A stretch of 64,000 bases of DNA from an uncultured Bacteroidia bacterium. GTDB lineage: Bacteria; Bacteroidota; Bacteroidia; Bacteroidales; F082. The stretch lies in the NCBI GenBank assembly GCA_902801465.1, contig CADCIH010000010.1, positions 31,210-95,209 of the forward strand. The letters run 5' to 3'. The notes under the pieces are model-generated. The model was not told the origin of the DNA. It did no database searches and saw only the letters and a program-made list of their open reading frames with translations. The position numbers and the translations under genes were made by a program. Positions 18,089-64,000 of the stretch are shown here, piece by piece; positions within the stretch are counted from its first letter, which is position 1; every line of letters starts with the position of its first letter.

Positions 18089-19621
18089 TCAAAGCTCTTT
18101 CCTGAGTCTCGCTACGGGAATCCCCAGTTGTTCTCTGTATTTTGCCACGGTGCGACGGGCAATGGGGTAGCCCTTCTCTTTCAGGATGTTCATCAACTCC
18201 TCGTCGGTGAGAGGCTTCGACTTGTCCTCTTCCTCCACACAGTCCGTCAAAATCTTCTTGATCTCGCGGGTGGAGACTTCCTCGCCCTCTTCGTTGGTGA
18301 TACCCTCGCTAAAGAAGGTCTTCAATAAGAAGGTGCCGTAAGGAGTCTGCACGTATTTGCTGTTGGCCACGCGCGAGATGGTAGAGATGTCCAACCCGAC
18401 TTTCTCGGCGATGTCCTTCAAGATCATGGGCTTCAGCTTGGTGTCGTCGCCAGTGAGGAAATACTCGCGCTGCATGTCCATGATGGCCTTCATGGTGATA
18501 TATAAGGTGTGCTGACGCTGCTTGATGGCGTCGATGAACCACTTGGCGCTGTCGATCTTCTGGCGAACGAAGGTGGCTGCCTCCTGCATGCTGCGTGACT
18601 CTTTCCCTTTTGAGAAATCTTCAAGCATCTTGACGTACTGCTTGCTGATCTTTAACTCGGGGTTGTTGCGTCCATCCAGTGAGAGTTCCAAATCACTATC
18701 CTTGATAGTGATGAAGAAATCAGGCGTGATATAATGGCTGACCACGGCGCCAGAGGTCGAGGTGTCGCCCGGCTTGGGGTTCAGCTTCAGGATCTCGTCC
18801 AAAGCGGCCTTGAGGTCGCGGTTGGAGGCGCCAGTCTTCTTTGCTATCTTGTCGTAGTGCTTCTTGGTAAACTCATCGAAACAGTCCTTGATGATGGTGA
18901 TGCAGAGCTTGTAGTCATTGTAGGGGTTTTCCTCTTGCAGGCGCTCCAGTTGGATCAACAGGCATTCCTGAAGGTCGGTGGCTCCGATGCCAGGTGGATC
19001 GAGATGTTGAACCACTTTGAGCACTTTCTTCACTTCTTCTTCGGTGGTCTCCACGTTCATCGTAAACAGCAGGTCATCGACCAAGTTGGCGATGGGACGG
19101 CTCAGGTATCCGTTGTCGTCGAGGTTGCCGATGATGACTTCGCCGATGATCTCCTCTTCCTCGGTCAGGTCGTGATAGCCCAACTGTTGGATGAGATAGT
19201 CTTGGAACGAATCCTGATGGACGATGGGGGCCTGGTAGTCCTCATCGTCGGCACTGTGGTTGTTGATGTGCGACTTGTAAGCGTAGTCGTATTCGTCCTC
19301 GTCAGGCAGATAGTCGGTCAGGTCAAAGTCGTCATCCTTGCTGCGGATGGGGTCGTCGTCGTTGTAATCGTCGTTCTCGCCATTGTCGCCGCCATCACCT
19401 TCATCCTCGTAGCCGTTGTCGTCAAGACTCTCGCTATCGTTGGTGGACTCGTTGTCTTCTTCGCCTACGGTGTCTTCCAATGCGGGGTTGGCCTCGATCT
19501 CCTCTTTGATGCGTTGCTCGAGTTCAATTAATGGCAGTTGCAGCAGCTTCATCAGCTGAATCTGCTGTGGCGAGAGCTTCAGCTCTTGTCTTTGTACCTG
19601 TGTTAACCTCTGATCCGACAT
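18089..19621 (-). CDS. rpoN: RNA polymerase sigma-54 factor
   Basis: Alternative sigma factor that needs AAA+ activators and reads -24/-12 promoters. 510 residues: Gln-rich activator-interaction region I (QRQELKLSPQQIQLMKLLQLP), an unusually long acidic region II (about residues 50-135, mostly Asp/Glu/Asn), the core-binding region (DLQECLLIQL), a helix-turn-helix (DISTISRVANSKYVQTPYG) and the RpoN box ARRTVAKYRE. Downstream of asnS with a 28-bp heptad spacer, so probably co-transcribed. Two sigma-54-like promoters are proposed at 60.5 and 61.6 kb. Confidence 0.96.
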   Translation of the reverse strand: MSDQRLTQVQRQELKLSPQQIQLMKLLQLPLIELEQRIKEEIEANPALEDTVGEEDNESTNDSESLDDNGYEDEGDGGDNGENDDYNDDDPIRSKDDDFDLTDYLPDEDEYDYAYKSHINNHSADDEDYQAPIVHQDSFQDYLIQQLGYHDLTEEEEIIGEVIIGNLDDNGYLSRPIANLVDDLLFTMNVETTEEEVKKVLKVVQHLDPPGIGATDLQECLLIQLERLQEENPYNDYKLCITIIKDCFDEFTKKHYDKIAKKTGASNRDLKAALDEILKLNPKPGDTSTSGAVVSHYITPDFFITIKDSDLELSLDGRNNPELKISKQYVKMLEDFSKGKESRSMQEAATFVRQKIDSAKWFIDAIKQRQHTLYITMKAIMDMQREYFLTGDDTKLKPMILKDIAEKVGLDISTISRVANSKYVQTPYGTFLLKTFFSEGITNEEGEEVSTREIKKILTDCVEEEDKSKPLTDEELMNILKEKGYPIARRTVAKYREQLGIPVARLRKEL

Positions 19622-60427: not shown

Positions 60428-60465
60428 TGTAAAGATTCTTTACACCGCTGTAAAAATTCTTTACA
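60428..60465 (+). promoter_or_regulatory. Tandem palindromes upstream of the ABC ATPase (putative activator sites)
   Basis: TGTAAAGATTCTTTACA at 60428-60444 and TGTAAAAATTCTTTACA at 60449-60465, joined by CCGC. Centres are 21 bp apart, two helical turns. The same arrangement occurs at 61542-61579. Confidence 0.7.
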
Positions 60466-60518
60466 GTCTTAAAGATTGGAGATATTGTAAAATATTGATA
60501 ATCAAATAATTAATTTTT

Positions 60519-60534
60519 TGGCATGAGGAATGGT
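60519..60534 (+). promoter_or_regulatory. Sigma-54-like -24/-12 element for the ABC ATPase (imperfect)
   Basis: TGGCATGAGGAATGGT: good -24 half (TGGCATG), weak -12 half (ATGG instead of TTGC). The -24 GG lies 63 bp from the centre of the nearer palindrome, exactly as at the second locus. Confidence 0.45.
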
Positions 60535-60594
60535 GTCCAAATGCTGTTATAATAAACAAAAGTAAAATCAGTTATACAATCAAATTCTAAGACA

Positions 60595-61275
60595 ATGATT
60601 AAGGTAGAAAACCTAGTGAAGATTTTCCGTACGGAAGACATTGAAACCCTCGCGTTGAACGGTGTTTCGTTCGAAATCAACGACGGCGAGTTTGTCGCCA
60701 TCATGGGGCCTTCGGGCTGCGGCAAGTCCACTTTGTTAAACATTCTTGGTCTTTTGGACAATCCCACCGAAGGTACCTACGAGCTTCTCGGTCAGCAGGT
60801 TGGAGACCTCAAGGAGAAGGATCGCACCCAGTTCCGCAAGGGCAACATCGGCTTTGTGTTCCAAAGCTTCAACCTCATTGATGAGCTGAATGTGTATGAG
60901 AACATCGAGTTGCCGTTGCGTTACATGAACGTTCCTGCCGCCGAACGCAAGGAACGTGTGGAGGCCATTTTGCAGCGCATGGCCATCAAGCATCGTTCGG
61001 AACACTTCCCGCAGCAGCTGTCGGGTGGTCAGCAGCAAAGGGTGGCCATCGCCCGCGCCGTGGTAGCCAACCCCAAGCTCATCCTCGCCGACGAGCCCAC
61101 AGGTAACCTCGACTCGAAGAACGGCAAGGAGGTGATGGACCTGCTCACTGACCTCCACAAGGAAGGCACCACCATCGTCATGGTGACCCACTCGCAGCGC
61201 GACGCCGGCTACGCCGACCGCATCATCAACCTGTTCGACGGTAAAATCGTGGAAGAGGTGTTGTCGCAACTTTGA
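60595..61275 (+). CDS. MacB/LolD-type ABC transporter ATPase
   Basis: 226 residues: Walker A GPSGCGKST (38-46), Q-loop FVFQSFNLIDELNVYENIELPL, signature LSGGQQQR, Walker B LILADEPTGNLDS, H-loop VTHSQRDA. Such ATPases pair with FtsX-like permeases, and one is encoded at 62646. They export macrolides, peptides or lipoproteins. It has its own sigma-54-like control region. Confidence 0.93.
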   Translation: MIKVENLVKIFRTEDIETLALNGVSFEINDGEFVAIMGPSGCGKSTLLNILGLLDNPTEGTYELLGQQVGDLKEKDRTQFRKGNIGFVFQSFNLIDELNVYENIELPLRYMNVPAAERKERVEAILQRMAIKHRSEHFPQQLSGGQQQRVAIARAVVANPKLILADEPTGNLDSKNGKEVMDLLTDLHKEGTTIVMVTHSQRDAGYADRIINLFDGKIVEEVLSQL

Positions 61276-61373
61276 TTTTTCCTTCTTAACATACACTTTT
61301 CCGTTAGAATTGAGGATGGCTTTTTAGATTATCCGTCCCGCTTCCTCAAGCAAAAACGGAATGACACCCACAT

Positions 61374-61481
61374 ACCCACCACACCCACATCCACGCTGTA
61401 GCCTCTGCGGATGAGCTCGACGAAGATCACGTTCTCCATCAGATGCGATTTCTCCTGCTGTCGAAAATTCAACTTTTCCAT
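61374..61481 (-). pseudogene. Remnant of an AAA ATPase of the DUF4143 type
   Basis: About 36 residues on the minus strand contain HLMENVIFVELIRRGYSVDVG, which matches the conserved HLLENIVYLELLRRGYEVYVG segment that links the ATPase and nuclease-like C-terminal domain of this very common Bacteroidales family. Nothing of the rest (P-loop, EVDFV motif) is found, so it is a fragment left by deletion. Confidence 0.55.
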
Positions 61482-61541
61482 AAACCTGCAAACAATCAGA
61501 AAAAAAGATGAACAATTTCGATCCAAAAGTGGATTAGTCGC

Positions 61542-61579
61542 TGTAAAGTTTCTTTACACCGCTGTAAAGAAACTTTACA
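61542..61579 (+). promoter_or_regulatory. Tandem palindromes upstream of the DUF2807 gene (putative activator sites)
   Basis: TGTAAAGTTTCTTTACA at 61542-61558 and TGTAAAGAAACTTTACA at 61563-61579, joined by CCGC. The 21-bp centre spacing and linker are identical to those at 60428-60465. Confidence 0.75.
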
Positions 61580-61632
61580 CTTTTTGCAAAACACTGTTTT
61601 ATATTTTATTGGTTTTTAATGATTTACAAGTT

Positions 61633-61648
61633 TGGCATGGCGGTTGCC
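61633..61648 (+). promoter_or_regulatory. Sigma-54-like promoter of the DUF2807/permease operon
   Basis: TGGCATGGCGGTTGCC fits the -24/-12 consensus TGGCAC-G-N4-TTGC with correct GG to GC spacing; start expected near 61659, ATG at 61684. The same bases also form an inverted repeat (GCATGGC/GCCATGC), so a hairpin or operator is an alternative reading. Confidence 0.6.
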
Positions 61649-61683
61649 ATGCAGAAAACAGAAAATTATAAACCTGTAAAACT

Positions 61684-62532
61684 ATGGCAAAGAAATCGTT
61701 TTTGACAGCACTGTTCATCATTATGGCGGTGCTGGGTGTTGAGGCGCAAACAAACAAAGTCTATAAGGCTGATACCGTTATTGACGGAAATGGCAACAAA
61801 ATCATCACCATGTACTCTCGGGGATCATTCGCCGAAGGTAACGGCAACATCATCACGCGTGACATCGATGTGGCGGCGTTCAAAGATTTCAGCATGATAT
61901 TGCCCGCAACGGTAAACTACAAAGTGGCGGACAACTACTCTTGCCGTGTGACCCTCGACGAGAACCTTTTCGAGTGGGTCGACATCTATCTGAAAGGTGA
62001 TTGCTTGAGGGTCGAGATGGTTAAGACGTTTCAGCAATCCGACGTGAAGCCGACGAAGTTTCTCATCGAGCTCACCGCTCCGACCTTGGAGGAAATCAGT
62101 ATTATGGGTGGCGGCGACTTTAATTTCGTTACGCCGTATGAAGCCAAAGAGTTGAATATTAAATTGACGGGTTCGGGCGAAGTGGTTTTCGAGAAAACAG
62201 CAAACATCTATGATTTTGATGTGGATGTTGCAGGCTCGGGAAGTTTGTTGAGCAAAGAACTTCTTGCTGACCACATGGATATAAGTATTGCTGGCTCAGG
62301 CGATGTCATGATCAAGGATGGAATGGTGAAAAAAGCGAACCTTTCCGTGGCGGGTTCGGGCTCCATTGAGGTGCGTTGCCAAATGGAATCGATGGACTAC
62401 AGCGTTGCTGGTACAGGTAGTATCTCTTACCCAGGCGATGTCAAGGCGGTAGGCACCGTAGTAGGCGGCAAGATCCATAAAATCTGGGGAACAGAAAACA
62501 ACAAGAAAAAAAGTTGTGATGAAAAACCGTAA
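61684..62532 (+). CDS. Exported DUF2807 (head-GIN) domain protein
   Basis: 282 residues: signal peptide (MAKKSFLTALFIIMAVLGVEAQ), then a DUF2807 beta-solenoid-like domain (VAAFKDFSMILPATVNYKVADNYSCRVTLDENL) with the repeated turn motif GSGEV, AGSGSL, AGSGDV, AGSGSI, AGTGSI at about 17-20 residue spacing. Such proteins are periplasmic or surface, function unknown. First gene after the sigma-54-like promoter; its 3' end overlaps a 47-codon ORF, and a permease follows. Confidence 0.9.
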   Translation: MAKKSFLTALFIIMAVLGVEAQTNKVYKADTVIDGNGNKIITMYSRGSFAEGNGNIITRDIDVAAFKDFSMILPATVNYKVADNYSCRVTLDENLFEWVDIYLKGDCLRVEMVKTFQQSDVKPTKFLIELTAPTLEEISIMGGGDFNFVTPYEAKELNIKLTGSGEVVFEKTANIYDFDVDVAGSGSLLSKELLADHMDISIAGSGDVMIKDGMVKKANLSVAGSGSIEVRCQMESMDYSVAGTGSISYPGDVKAVGTVVGGKIHKIWGTENNKKKSCDEKP

Positions 62533-62662
62533 TAAAACGAGAATCAGCCAAGCGCTTTTCGAAAAGTTGGTAAAGTTCTTCGGACTTGAAAAAGCGGAGA
62601 AAATATACAAAAGACTTGATCGTTTAAATAACAATTCAACGACTTATGGCAAGAATCTATAA
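62519..62662 (+). CDS. 47-residue basic ORF overlapping both neighbours
   Basis: ATG at 62519 overlaps the end of the DUF2807 gene by 14 nt, and the stop at 62660-62662 lies 17 nt inside the permease gene. The product (ALFEKLVKFFGLEKAEKIYKR in the middle) is basic and helical. The double overlap is what translational coupling would give and it fills the only gap in the operon. No family is recognised; it may be a chance ORF. Confidence 0.5.
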   Translation: MKNRNKTRISQALFEKLVKFFGLEKAEKIYKRLDRLNNNSTTYGKNL

Positions 62663-64000
62663 AAAAGGCAAGACCTCCCTTGTGTCTTCCATCCTGAACA
62701 TCTTGGGCTTGACGGCAGCCTTCGCCGCGCTCTATATCATCCTTGTGCAGGTGCACCACGACCTCACCTACAACAAGGCACTCAAGGACAGCGACAGGAT
62801 TTATGTCATCACGAAACAAGAGTCGCAATCCAGCGGCTATTCCGCTTATTTGTGTCGCCCCATTGGCGAATATGTGATTAATGCTTCCCCCGACATTGAA
62901 GCTGGTGGTTGCGGTCGCATCGCAGGTGTTCCCACCAAGATTCGCGTGAGCGACGAGCAATCGCCTGTTCCTGGGTCGCAAGTCGCCTTGAACAAAGGTG
63001 CCCGCGAGGTTTTTGGATTTGAGCTGGTGGCTGGCAATTGGGATGATTTGACAGGTGAGGCATTCGCTGTCTCGGAATCGATGGCTAAGCGTCTCGGCGT
63101 CCAAGTGGGTGACGTTGTGAAGTTTCTAGCCGAAACAACGTGGCGAGAAACGACCATCGTGGCCATCTATAAGGATATGCCGAAGCACAGCGATCTCTCA
63201 ACTTTTGATATTGTTTCCGATATGCCCGATGTTTGGCTCGATGAATGGAAGGAGTTTTCATTTCACTATTTTGTGAAGCTGCGCAAAGGAGCCGACCCCG
63301 ATGCGATCACCGTGGCAGCAAAGCCCGTCTGCAAGCAGTTTTTCAGTGAGATAAATGGAGGTGTTGAGGTTACGGACGATGATGTCAAGTTTGGGATTCG
63401 CCCTGTGTTGCTGACAGAGATGTATTTCGCCGATCCCAACTCCAACTATACAGTTGGAAAGATGGGAAACCGCACCACTACCATGACGCTGCTTGTCATC
63501 GCCATCTTTGTGGTGCTTATCGCTTTCATCAATTACATCAACTTCTTCTTTGCGATGGTGCCATTGCGTCTGCGGAGCATCAATACGCGCAAGATATTGG
63601 GCAGCAGCCGTTTCCAATTGGTGATGTCGTCGGTAGGCGAGTCGCTATTGATGGTGATTATCGCCCTTGGTTTGGCAGTGGCTGTGGTTACATTGTTTAA
63701 GCAATCCACATTGGCTGCCCTGATTGACACCTCGCTGGATTTCGGCCAAAACTGGGGCATCGTTGCTTTGACCATTGGTTTGGCATTGCTTATCTCGGTG
63801 GTCGCCAGTCTCTATCCAGCCTTGTTCGCCACCTCGTTCAATCCTGCTTTTGCCTTGAAAGGAACTCTCGGTACCACACAAAAAGGCAAGGCTTTCCGTG
63901 TTGGCTTGATCGGTTTGCAGTTTACGGTGTCTATTGTTTTGATCATCTGTGCAATATTTGTCCATGAACAACGTCAGTATATGCTGAATCATGACACGGG
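62646..64000 (+). CDS. FtsX-like ABC transporter permease (MacB type), 3' end outside window
   Basis: Open from the ATG at 62646 to the window edge (over 450 codons). N-terminal membrane segment (LVSSILNILGLTAAFAALYIILVQ), a MacB-type periplasmic core domain (HHDLTYNKALKDSDRIYVIT ... AREVFGFELVAGNWDDL ... VSESMAKRLGVQVGD), and FtsX-type membrane segments (TTMTLLVIAIFVVLIAFINYI; LLMVIIALGLAVAVVTLF; IVALTIGLALLISVVASLYP), with VGLIGLQFTVSIVLIICAIF after them. Likely partner of the ATPase at 60595; substrate unknown. Confidence 0.9.
   Translation, partial: MARIYKKGKTSLVSSILNILGLTAAFAALYIILVQVHHDLTYNKALKDSDRIYVITKQESQSSGYSAYLCRPIGEYVINASPDIEAGGCGRIAGVPTKIRVSDEQSPVPGSQVALNKGAREVFGFELVAGNWDDLTGEAFAVSESMAKRLGVQVGDVVKFLAETTWRETTIVAIYKDMPKHSDLSTFDIVSDMPDVWLDEWKEFSFHYFVKLRKGADPDAITVAAKPVCKQFFSEINGGVEVTDDDVKFGIRPVLLTEMYFADPNSNYTVGKMGNRTTTMTLLVIAIFVVLIAFINYINFFFAMVPLRLRSINTRKILGSSRFQLVMSSVGESLLMVIIALGLAVAVVTLFKQSTLAALIDTSLDFGQNWGIVALTIGLALLISVVASLYPALFATSFNPAFALKGTLGTTQKGKAFRVGLIGLQFTVSIVLIICAIFVHEQRQYMLNHDT

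Follow-up and report, generated by a model that had tools for sequence, protein, structure and literature searches.

Classical NtrC-type sigma-54 promoters combine upstream dyads, an IHF bend and a -24/-12 element. Bce-type systems are built around kinases that sense a transporter and act through an OmpR-type output. To our knowledge, few sigma-54 regulons have been defined in Bacteroidota.

Sigma-54 promoters of FtsX-like ABC permeases (COG0577) in Bacteroidia have been predicted, and termed first evidence, in PMC12316311, whose main text contains neither 'tandem' nor 'palindrom'. A kinase and a response regulator are described for one Bacteroidales RiPP cluster in PMC10352776, in the main text of which 'sigma' is absent. 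The iron-responsive genes of B. thetaiotaomicron, as given in the accessible part of PMC10434189, include a gene for a sigma-54-dependent regulator and also ABC/adaptor genes unlinked to it. Neither 'Bacteroid' nor 'ABC transport' occurs in the accessible text of PMC3162934. We recognised no description of the dyad/sigma-54 exporter regulon reported here in the open-access papers searched.

The window analyzed here is a 64,000-nucleotide stretch of a contig from an uncultured Bacteroidia bacterium. A preliminary description of this DNA proposed that one AAA+ activator, together with the rpoN product, controls an ABC ATPase gene and DUF2807/permease genes downstream of two copies of a promoter module. 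Our analysis supports this proposal: the dyads, their distance to the -24 element and the TG of the -12 element are conserved, and the clusters of relatives encode a regulator and a kinase. Beyond that description, it adds an IHF-like element in the spacer, a wider regulon and dyad letters that differ between clades. From these sequence features, each module is very probably an enhancer-dependent sigma-54 promoter under a dedicated NtrC-type regulator, with an IHF/HU-type bend, that drives exporter genes.

Two palindrome pairs are present at the positions first reported, each joined by a CCGC linker, with dyad centres 21 bp apart. The distal activator dyad of module 1, TGTAAAGATTCTTTACA (60428..60444, + strand), and its proximal dyad, TGTAAAAATTCTTTACA (60449..60465, +), read from the DNA, are centred at about -109 and -88 from the predicted start. 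The corresponding dyads of module 2 are TGTAAAGTTTCTTTACA (61542..61558, +) and TGTAAAGAAACTTTACA (61563..61579, +). The form TGTAAAG-N3-CTTTACA originally assigned to all of them is exact in three of the four dyads, and the one at 60449-60465 deviates by one mismatch. The first base of TGGCATG is at 60519 in module 1 and at 61633 in module 2, 53 bp past the last base of the nearer dyad, which places the -24 element 62 bp from the centre of that dyad in both modules and corrects the earlier value of 63 bp. The -24/-12 element of the downstream module, TGGCATGGCGGTTGCC (61633..61648, +; predicted start near 61659), is a full match, as had been claimed, and that of module 1, TGGCATGAGGAATGGT (60519..60534, +; predicted start near 60545), has G instead of C as its last -12 base. 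In a sigma-54 promoter test (GG at -24, GC at -12 and 10 bp between them), module 2 accordingly scores in full and module 1 shows GG for GC at -12.

The dyads are rare. At up to three mismatches, the window contains six single-dyad matches against 1.70 +/- 1.50 expected, a number reached in 1 of 100 shuffles, and the only window dyads with 0-1 mismatch are the four of the two modules. No single dyad besides these four comes within one mismatch of the pattern in the whole host genome (2.46 Mb in 34 contigs, 97.9% complete), for which the reversed control pattern gives one match. A genome search for paired dyads, along the lines that the preliminary description had suggested, recovered both window tandems and no other tandem in the 2.46 Mb. 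Nothing else appeared when up to three mismatches were allowed with a linker of 4, or when exact dyads with linkers of 1-12 bp were sought, all controls being 0.

Tandems with a linker of 4 and at most two mismatches were found in 61 of 173 family genomes, with 0 in every row of the reversed controls. The conservation of dyads and of -24/-12 spacing that had been sought in related genomes is present in the genus, 60 of whose 99 genomes carry a tandem. At 53 of the 58 distinct sites (51 loci), one side shows TGG at a distance of 52-54 bp, with TG twelve bases further on. The sites without -24/-12 are those of G010, G063:C82:304, G087, G089 and G093. We took four of these (G010, G087, G089 and G093) as AT-rich chance matches; the last three, AT-rich two-mismatch tandems that lack a promoter, are probably such matches among the 60 of the genus. 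The named records that were found are mostly Bacteroidales metagenome assemblies, many of them from ruminants.

The genes downstream of the modules belong to an exporter cluster. Module 1 precedes a gene for an ABC transporter ATPase of 226 aa (60595..61275, +), 92% identical to the ATPase of the G106 cluster. The first gene after module 2 encodes a DUF2807 protein of 282 aa (61684..62532, +) and is followed by a gene for a MacB/FtsX-type ABC permease with MacB_PCD and FtsX domains (62646..63998, +), truncated by the contig end. Among 147 modules with spacers of 50-56 bp, the first script-called ORF resembles an FtsX/MacB-type permease in 50, TolC in 39, a DUF2807 protein in 21, an ABC ATPase in 12, HlyD in 3 and the regulator in one, so that 126 promoters face a gene of the exporter/regulator set; another kind of ORF follows in 15 and none in 6. 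The order in the G106 cluster is module, TolC, HlyD, several permeases and ABC ATPase, followed by response regulator and histidine kinase. A module also stands ahead of TolC-HlyD-permease genes in a Tannerella (L187) and ahead of a 62% identical regulator with its kinase in a Prevotellaceae record (L123). In three other stretches (L115, L141 and L150), it precedes a gene that, by reading of its sequence, resembles GNAT-type acetyltransferase genes.

In relatives, an NtrC-type response regulator and a histidine kinase are encoded at the end of this same transporter cluster. The G106 regulator (454 aa) consists of REC, PF00158 and HTH_8 domains, and its kinase has 286 aa. By hydropathy, 40 of 41 kinase rows, among them G064 with an over-long predicted start, cross the membrane with one or two helices, leaving a very short loop and lacking an extracytoplasmic domain; the remaining row, G107 (1004 aa, six helices), is probably another protein. 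The regulator has a match at E <= 1e-110 in 140 of 173 family genomes, with lower identity outside the genus. Of the 40 stretches of DNA retrieved around regulator genes, a strict scan placed a module in only 16, with no match in 0.62 Mb of reversed control sequence; several stretches were short and some real modules were missed (G059), and there were other 20-kb stretches with none.

The window itself encodes sigma-54: the ORF at 18089..19621 (-), named as rpoN in the preliminary description, scores 429.1 bits against TIGR02395 (cut-off 277.35). The REC-AAA(PF00158)-HTH_8 activator that relatives encode with its targets was not found in the host assembly, where orthologues of the regulator, kinase, HlyD and TolC are absent and the best matches are 41%, 29%, 20% and 21% identical, respectively. 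The host contig ends inside the window permease, leaving no sequence past position 64000, and in several relatives, too, such sites are found no more than about 650 bp from the end of a contig. We infer that the four absences reflect an assembly gap and that the host species presumably possesses the regulator.

NtrC-type activators as such, the second thing to be looked for in this genome, are present: PF00158 gives six matches, three of them strong. One is the response regulator C1 (L010:6307-7467, G000:C1), which has REC, AAA+ and lid but no HTH by Pfam and may activate without binding DNA. C7 (L012:6043-7371) is a REC-AAA-HTH response regulator gene adjoining a hybrid kinase, and C9 (L011:5527-6735) encodes an AAA-HTH protein. 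The modules could thus be sigma-54 promoters bound by another NtrC-type protein of the host, such as C7 or C9, both of which have AAA+ and Fis-type HTH domains and are in the assembly, where the dedicated regulator is not. We consider this improbable, since the host NtrC-type proteins are 37-44% identical to the dedicated regulator over their main matches and since a different regulator resides inside the target cluster of relatives, where the dyad letters track its clades.

The regulators of the genus comprise one clade with an SRPTLY recognition helix (P-type) and two with S/TRQTLY (Q-type). Among genomes with the helix read, TGTCYA tandems occur in 0 of 41 P-type versus 11 of 15 Q-type genomes (Fisher's p = 9e-9, for rows related by descent). 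TGTAAA tandems with a linker of 4 occur in 30 of 41 P-type versus 2 of 15 Q-type genomes, both Q-type cases being AT-rich matches. Six of the 11 other P-type genomes have a TGTAAA tandem with a linker of 2 or 5 (G064, G067, G075, G085, G091 and G109), and in five of the 41 neither the tandem scan nor the looser scan described below detected one. The TGTCYA tandem was found in 12 of 173 family genomes, all within the genus (controls 0); the twelfth, G089, has no regulator at E <= 1e-110. A -24 element lies at 52-54 bp in 29 of the 35 distinct TGTCYA readings and is missing there in six, including the sole reading of Q-type G065, which is one of the 11. The geometry is unchanged with the diverged regulators, and the dyads read TGTCYA rather than TGTAAA.

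In a tree of 45 regulators, the labelled genus rows split cleanly, with 20 TGTAAA rows in one clade and 12 TGTCYA rows in two, so one switch would suffice, and the change in dyad letters may indeed have been a single evolutionary event. With the 12 unlabelled rows treated as a state, the changes number 6 and 5, fewer than in any of 500 shuffles. A single-residue code (SRPTLY versus S/TRQTLY) agrees with the data within the genus, but we rejected it as the sole determinant of specificity because Q-type regulators outside the genus, G142 and L186 (the latter a long, uncertain branch in the tree), adjoin TGTAAA-like dyads; the P/Q residue alone does not set specificity. At L245:110-170 (G052:C4), three TGTCCA-type dyads follow one another at a 22-bp spacing, and no -24 element was found at 40-75 bp past the first dyad pair.

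The pattern of the looser scan, run over 2.47 Mb of loci, some of them overlapping, was a pair of TGT-N11-ACA dyads with TGGC[AT][CT] at 40-70 bp. It tolerated one outer mismatch, 11 of 16 pairs had to be symmetric, and the -12 TG was not part of it. The scan yielded 158 distinct modules, and 0 in reversed sequences. The linker is 4 bp in 120 and 5 bp in 32 of them, proportions biased by the fact that most loci were fetched with the linker-4 pattern, which leaves the distance and the -12 unaffected. Within the permitted 40-70 bp, the -24 element lies at 52-55 bp in 151 of 158 modules. Restriction to spacers of 50-56 bp, linkers of up to 6 and full flanks gave 149 modules, and removal of rows with at least 80% identity left 89. 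In this non-redundant set, conservation is concentrated in the dyads, the linker, the spacer element and -24/-12. The two -12 letters T and G are conserved at 97% and 99% and the next C at only 48%, so the TGG read at -12 in the upstream module of the window is not unusual. Longer linkers are paired with shorter spacers (variance of the sum 0.54 versus 0.98 permuted; 0 of 10,000 permutations as low), which means that the distal dyad holds its promoter distance better than the proximal dyad does. A universal CCRC linker towards the promoter was rejected: this sequence is read in 77 of the 117 modules whose linker is 4 bp, and 25 of the 30 with a 5-bp linker have C[CT]C[AG]C.

Two modules with a spacer of 55 bp, L258:10331-10366 (G067) and L263 (G064), have linkers of 2 bp instead of 4, with dyads 19 bp apart and an unchanged distance from distal dyad to -24. 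Tandem dyads of the same pattern were also seen at intervals of 42 bp, 105 bp or multiples of 21 bp in other Bacteroidota records (L093:250-455, L106:250-329, L163:2728-2807 and L158:1931-2388). These resemble repeat arrays rather than promoters, and the records that contain them include Chitinophagaceae and Sphingobacterium faecale.

The conserved spacer element YAANNNNTTGATW, which we take to be the IHF consensus read from the opposite strand, begins 31 bp before the T of the -24 element, and 48 of 89 modules match at least 8 of 9 letters there, a score seen in no more than 6 modules at any other offset of that strand. An inverse copy, at -19, has 8 or more of the 9 letters in 25 of 89 modules, and the two copies together form the palindrome TAA-N4-TTGAT-N-ATCAA-N4-TTA. 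Over offsets -32 to -30, 54 of 89 modules reach 8 of 9, compared with 0.9% of shuffles. Consensus and offset were picked after the conserved columns had been seen, and the TGTCYA modules provide a largely separate check: among those with a promoter at 52-54 bp, the element scores at least 8 of 9 in 27 of 29. In module 1 of the window, the palindrome TAA-N4-TTGAT-A-ATCAA-N4-TTA occupies 60488..60512 (+); 60488-60500 scored 9/9, and the second half was read from the sequence. Module 2 has a weaker element at the same offset (61602..61614, +; 7/9 consensus letters). The host genome encodes two proteins of the HU/IHF family (PF00216), candidates for an IHF; such a protein may bend the spacer at this element. 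We also rejected a reading of the element as an FNR site, whose half-sites are 4 bp apart, since only 1 bp separates TTGAT from ATCAA.

This spacing also speaks against the FNR-type version of a more general alternative, in which the protein bound at the dyads is a repressor or some other regulator that has nothing to do with sigma-54 (TetR-, CRP/FNR- or PadR-type) and the -24-like element is incidental. Palindromes of 17 bp with TGT-ACA ends are a common operator form, but the concentration of TGGC at 52-55 bp, the nearly invariant -12 TG and the compensation between linker and spacer make this alternative very unlikely. We give almost no credence to the idea that the repeat, rather than being a conserved site, arose when whole exporter genes were recently duplicated together with the DNA upstream of them: permeases are duplicated inside clusters and some upstream flanks are near-identical between copies, but the 89 modules remain after the identity filter, their conservation is concentrated in the elements, and divergent clades retain the geometry with other letters.

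Under the favoured reading of a dedicated NtrC-type regulator, this regulator would be an orthologue of the protein encoded at L063:1692-3056; the exporter clusters of relatives end with its gene and one for a small membrane histidine kinase, which would phosphorylate it in response to a signal. Two dimers of the regulator would occupy the dyads at about -88 and -109, which are separated by two helical turns, and assemble into the AAA+ oligomer needed to remodel the RpoN-polymerase at -24/-12. The spacer would be bent at about -45 by an IHF/HU-type protein, bringing activator and polymerase together. The expected outcome is more of a tripartite MacAB/DarBCD-like exporter (TolC, HlyD adaptor, FtsX-type permeases and ABC ATPase) and of DUF2807 proteins. 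The regulator would also raise its own level wherever its gene is part of the cluster or has a module of its own in front.

Several loci bear on what may be exported. In the distant Bacteroidales record CAIRDP010000009.1 (adjacent stretches L186 and L128), the module stands ahead of a radical-SAM peptide cluster with a 69-aa peptide that has a double-glycine-like leader, a radical-SAM maturase, a pseudo-rSAM protein and an FtsX-type permease. The maturase passes the cut-off of TIGR04148 (378.5 bits, cut-off 300), the pseudo-rSAM protein just misses that of TIGR04150 (247.2 bits, cut-off 250), and the L128 peptide stays below that of the rSAM-modified RiPP precursor family TIGR04149 (17.6 bits, cut-off 25). 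Also encoded on this contig are a kinase, a regulator with 46% identity and an ABC ATPase with 64% identity. Another genome, G054, has a 68-aa Cys-rich ORF (L288:3805-4011, G054:C114) about 400 bp beyond a full module's -24 element, and a smaller ORF lies in between. This ORF has no Pfam or NCBIfam match and is perhaps a candidate exported peptide. Together with an adaptor nearest to DarC, the radical-SAM cluster and the G054 ORF suggest peptide export.

A bolder idea, which we regard as unlikely to hold in full, is that the circuit would be a Gram-negative sigma-54 counterpart of transporter-sensing modules: the sensorless kinase would read the load of the FtsX exporter, and its NtrC-type partner would induce the exporters and the exported peptides. 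The latter would be the radical-SAM RiPP in the distant Bacteroidales genome and perhaps the 68-aa peptide of G054.

The cis-module is tied to its regulator by gene neighbourhood and by a matched change of clade, which makes targets predictable in Bacteroidales of the rumen and elsewhere. The naturally varying regulators and sites, with their constant geometry, let one ask how Fis-type HTHs change specificity, and are also useful for the spacing tolerance of sigma-54 activation. The member that belongs to a peptide cluster suggests where to seek the cargo of these exporters.

Compared with described systems, the kinases resemble those of Bce-type systems in having one or two helices, no extracytoplasmic sensor domain and a gene beside FtsX-type permeases, but the predicted output here is a sigma-54 activator instead of an OmpR-type protein. 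The radical-SAM RiPP clusters of the GG-Bacteroidales type (TIGR04148/TIGR04149/TIGR04150) are linked to this locus by the same dyad and sigma-54 module at CAIRDP010000009.1, whereas, as read, the window showed no maturase or precursor and its exporter cluster no peptide gene. As to the darobactin exporter DarBCD and MacAB-TolC, the window permease has MacB_PCD and FtsX domains, relatives provide a TolC partner, and the HlyD adaptor of G106 best matches DarC (NF038010, 204.5 bits), although it is not filed as DarC because the score is below the cut-off of 450; unlike in those systems, there are several permeases per cluster. With NtrC-type enhancer promoters, the modules share two dyads two turns apart, an IHF-like site before the promoter, -24/-12 and, in relatives, a REC-AAA-Fis-HTH activator. 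They differ from them in dyad letters, in dyad positions at about -88/-109, in ABC exporter targets and in their Bacteroidales setting, and activation through them is a prediction. The predictions of PMC12316311 concern the same target class and are likewise computational, but the accessible text of that paper gives no activator, dyads, spacer element or operon structure for the permeases. We regard this as a new regulon within the known NtrC-type sigma-54 enhancer control, for a class of permeases whose sigma-54 control had already been predicted (PMC12316311).
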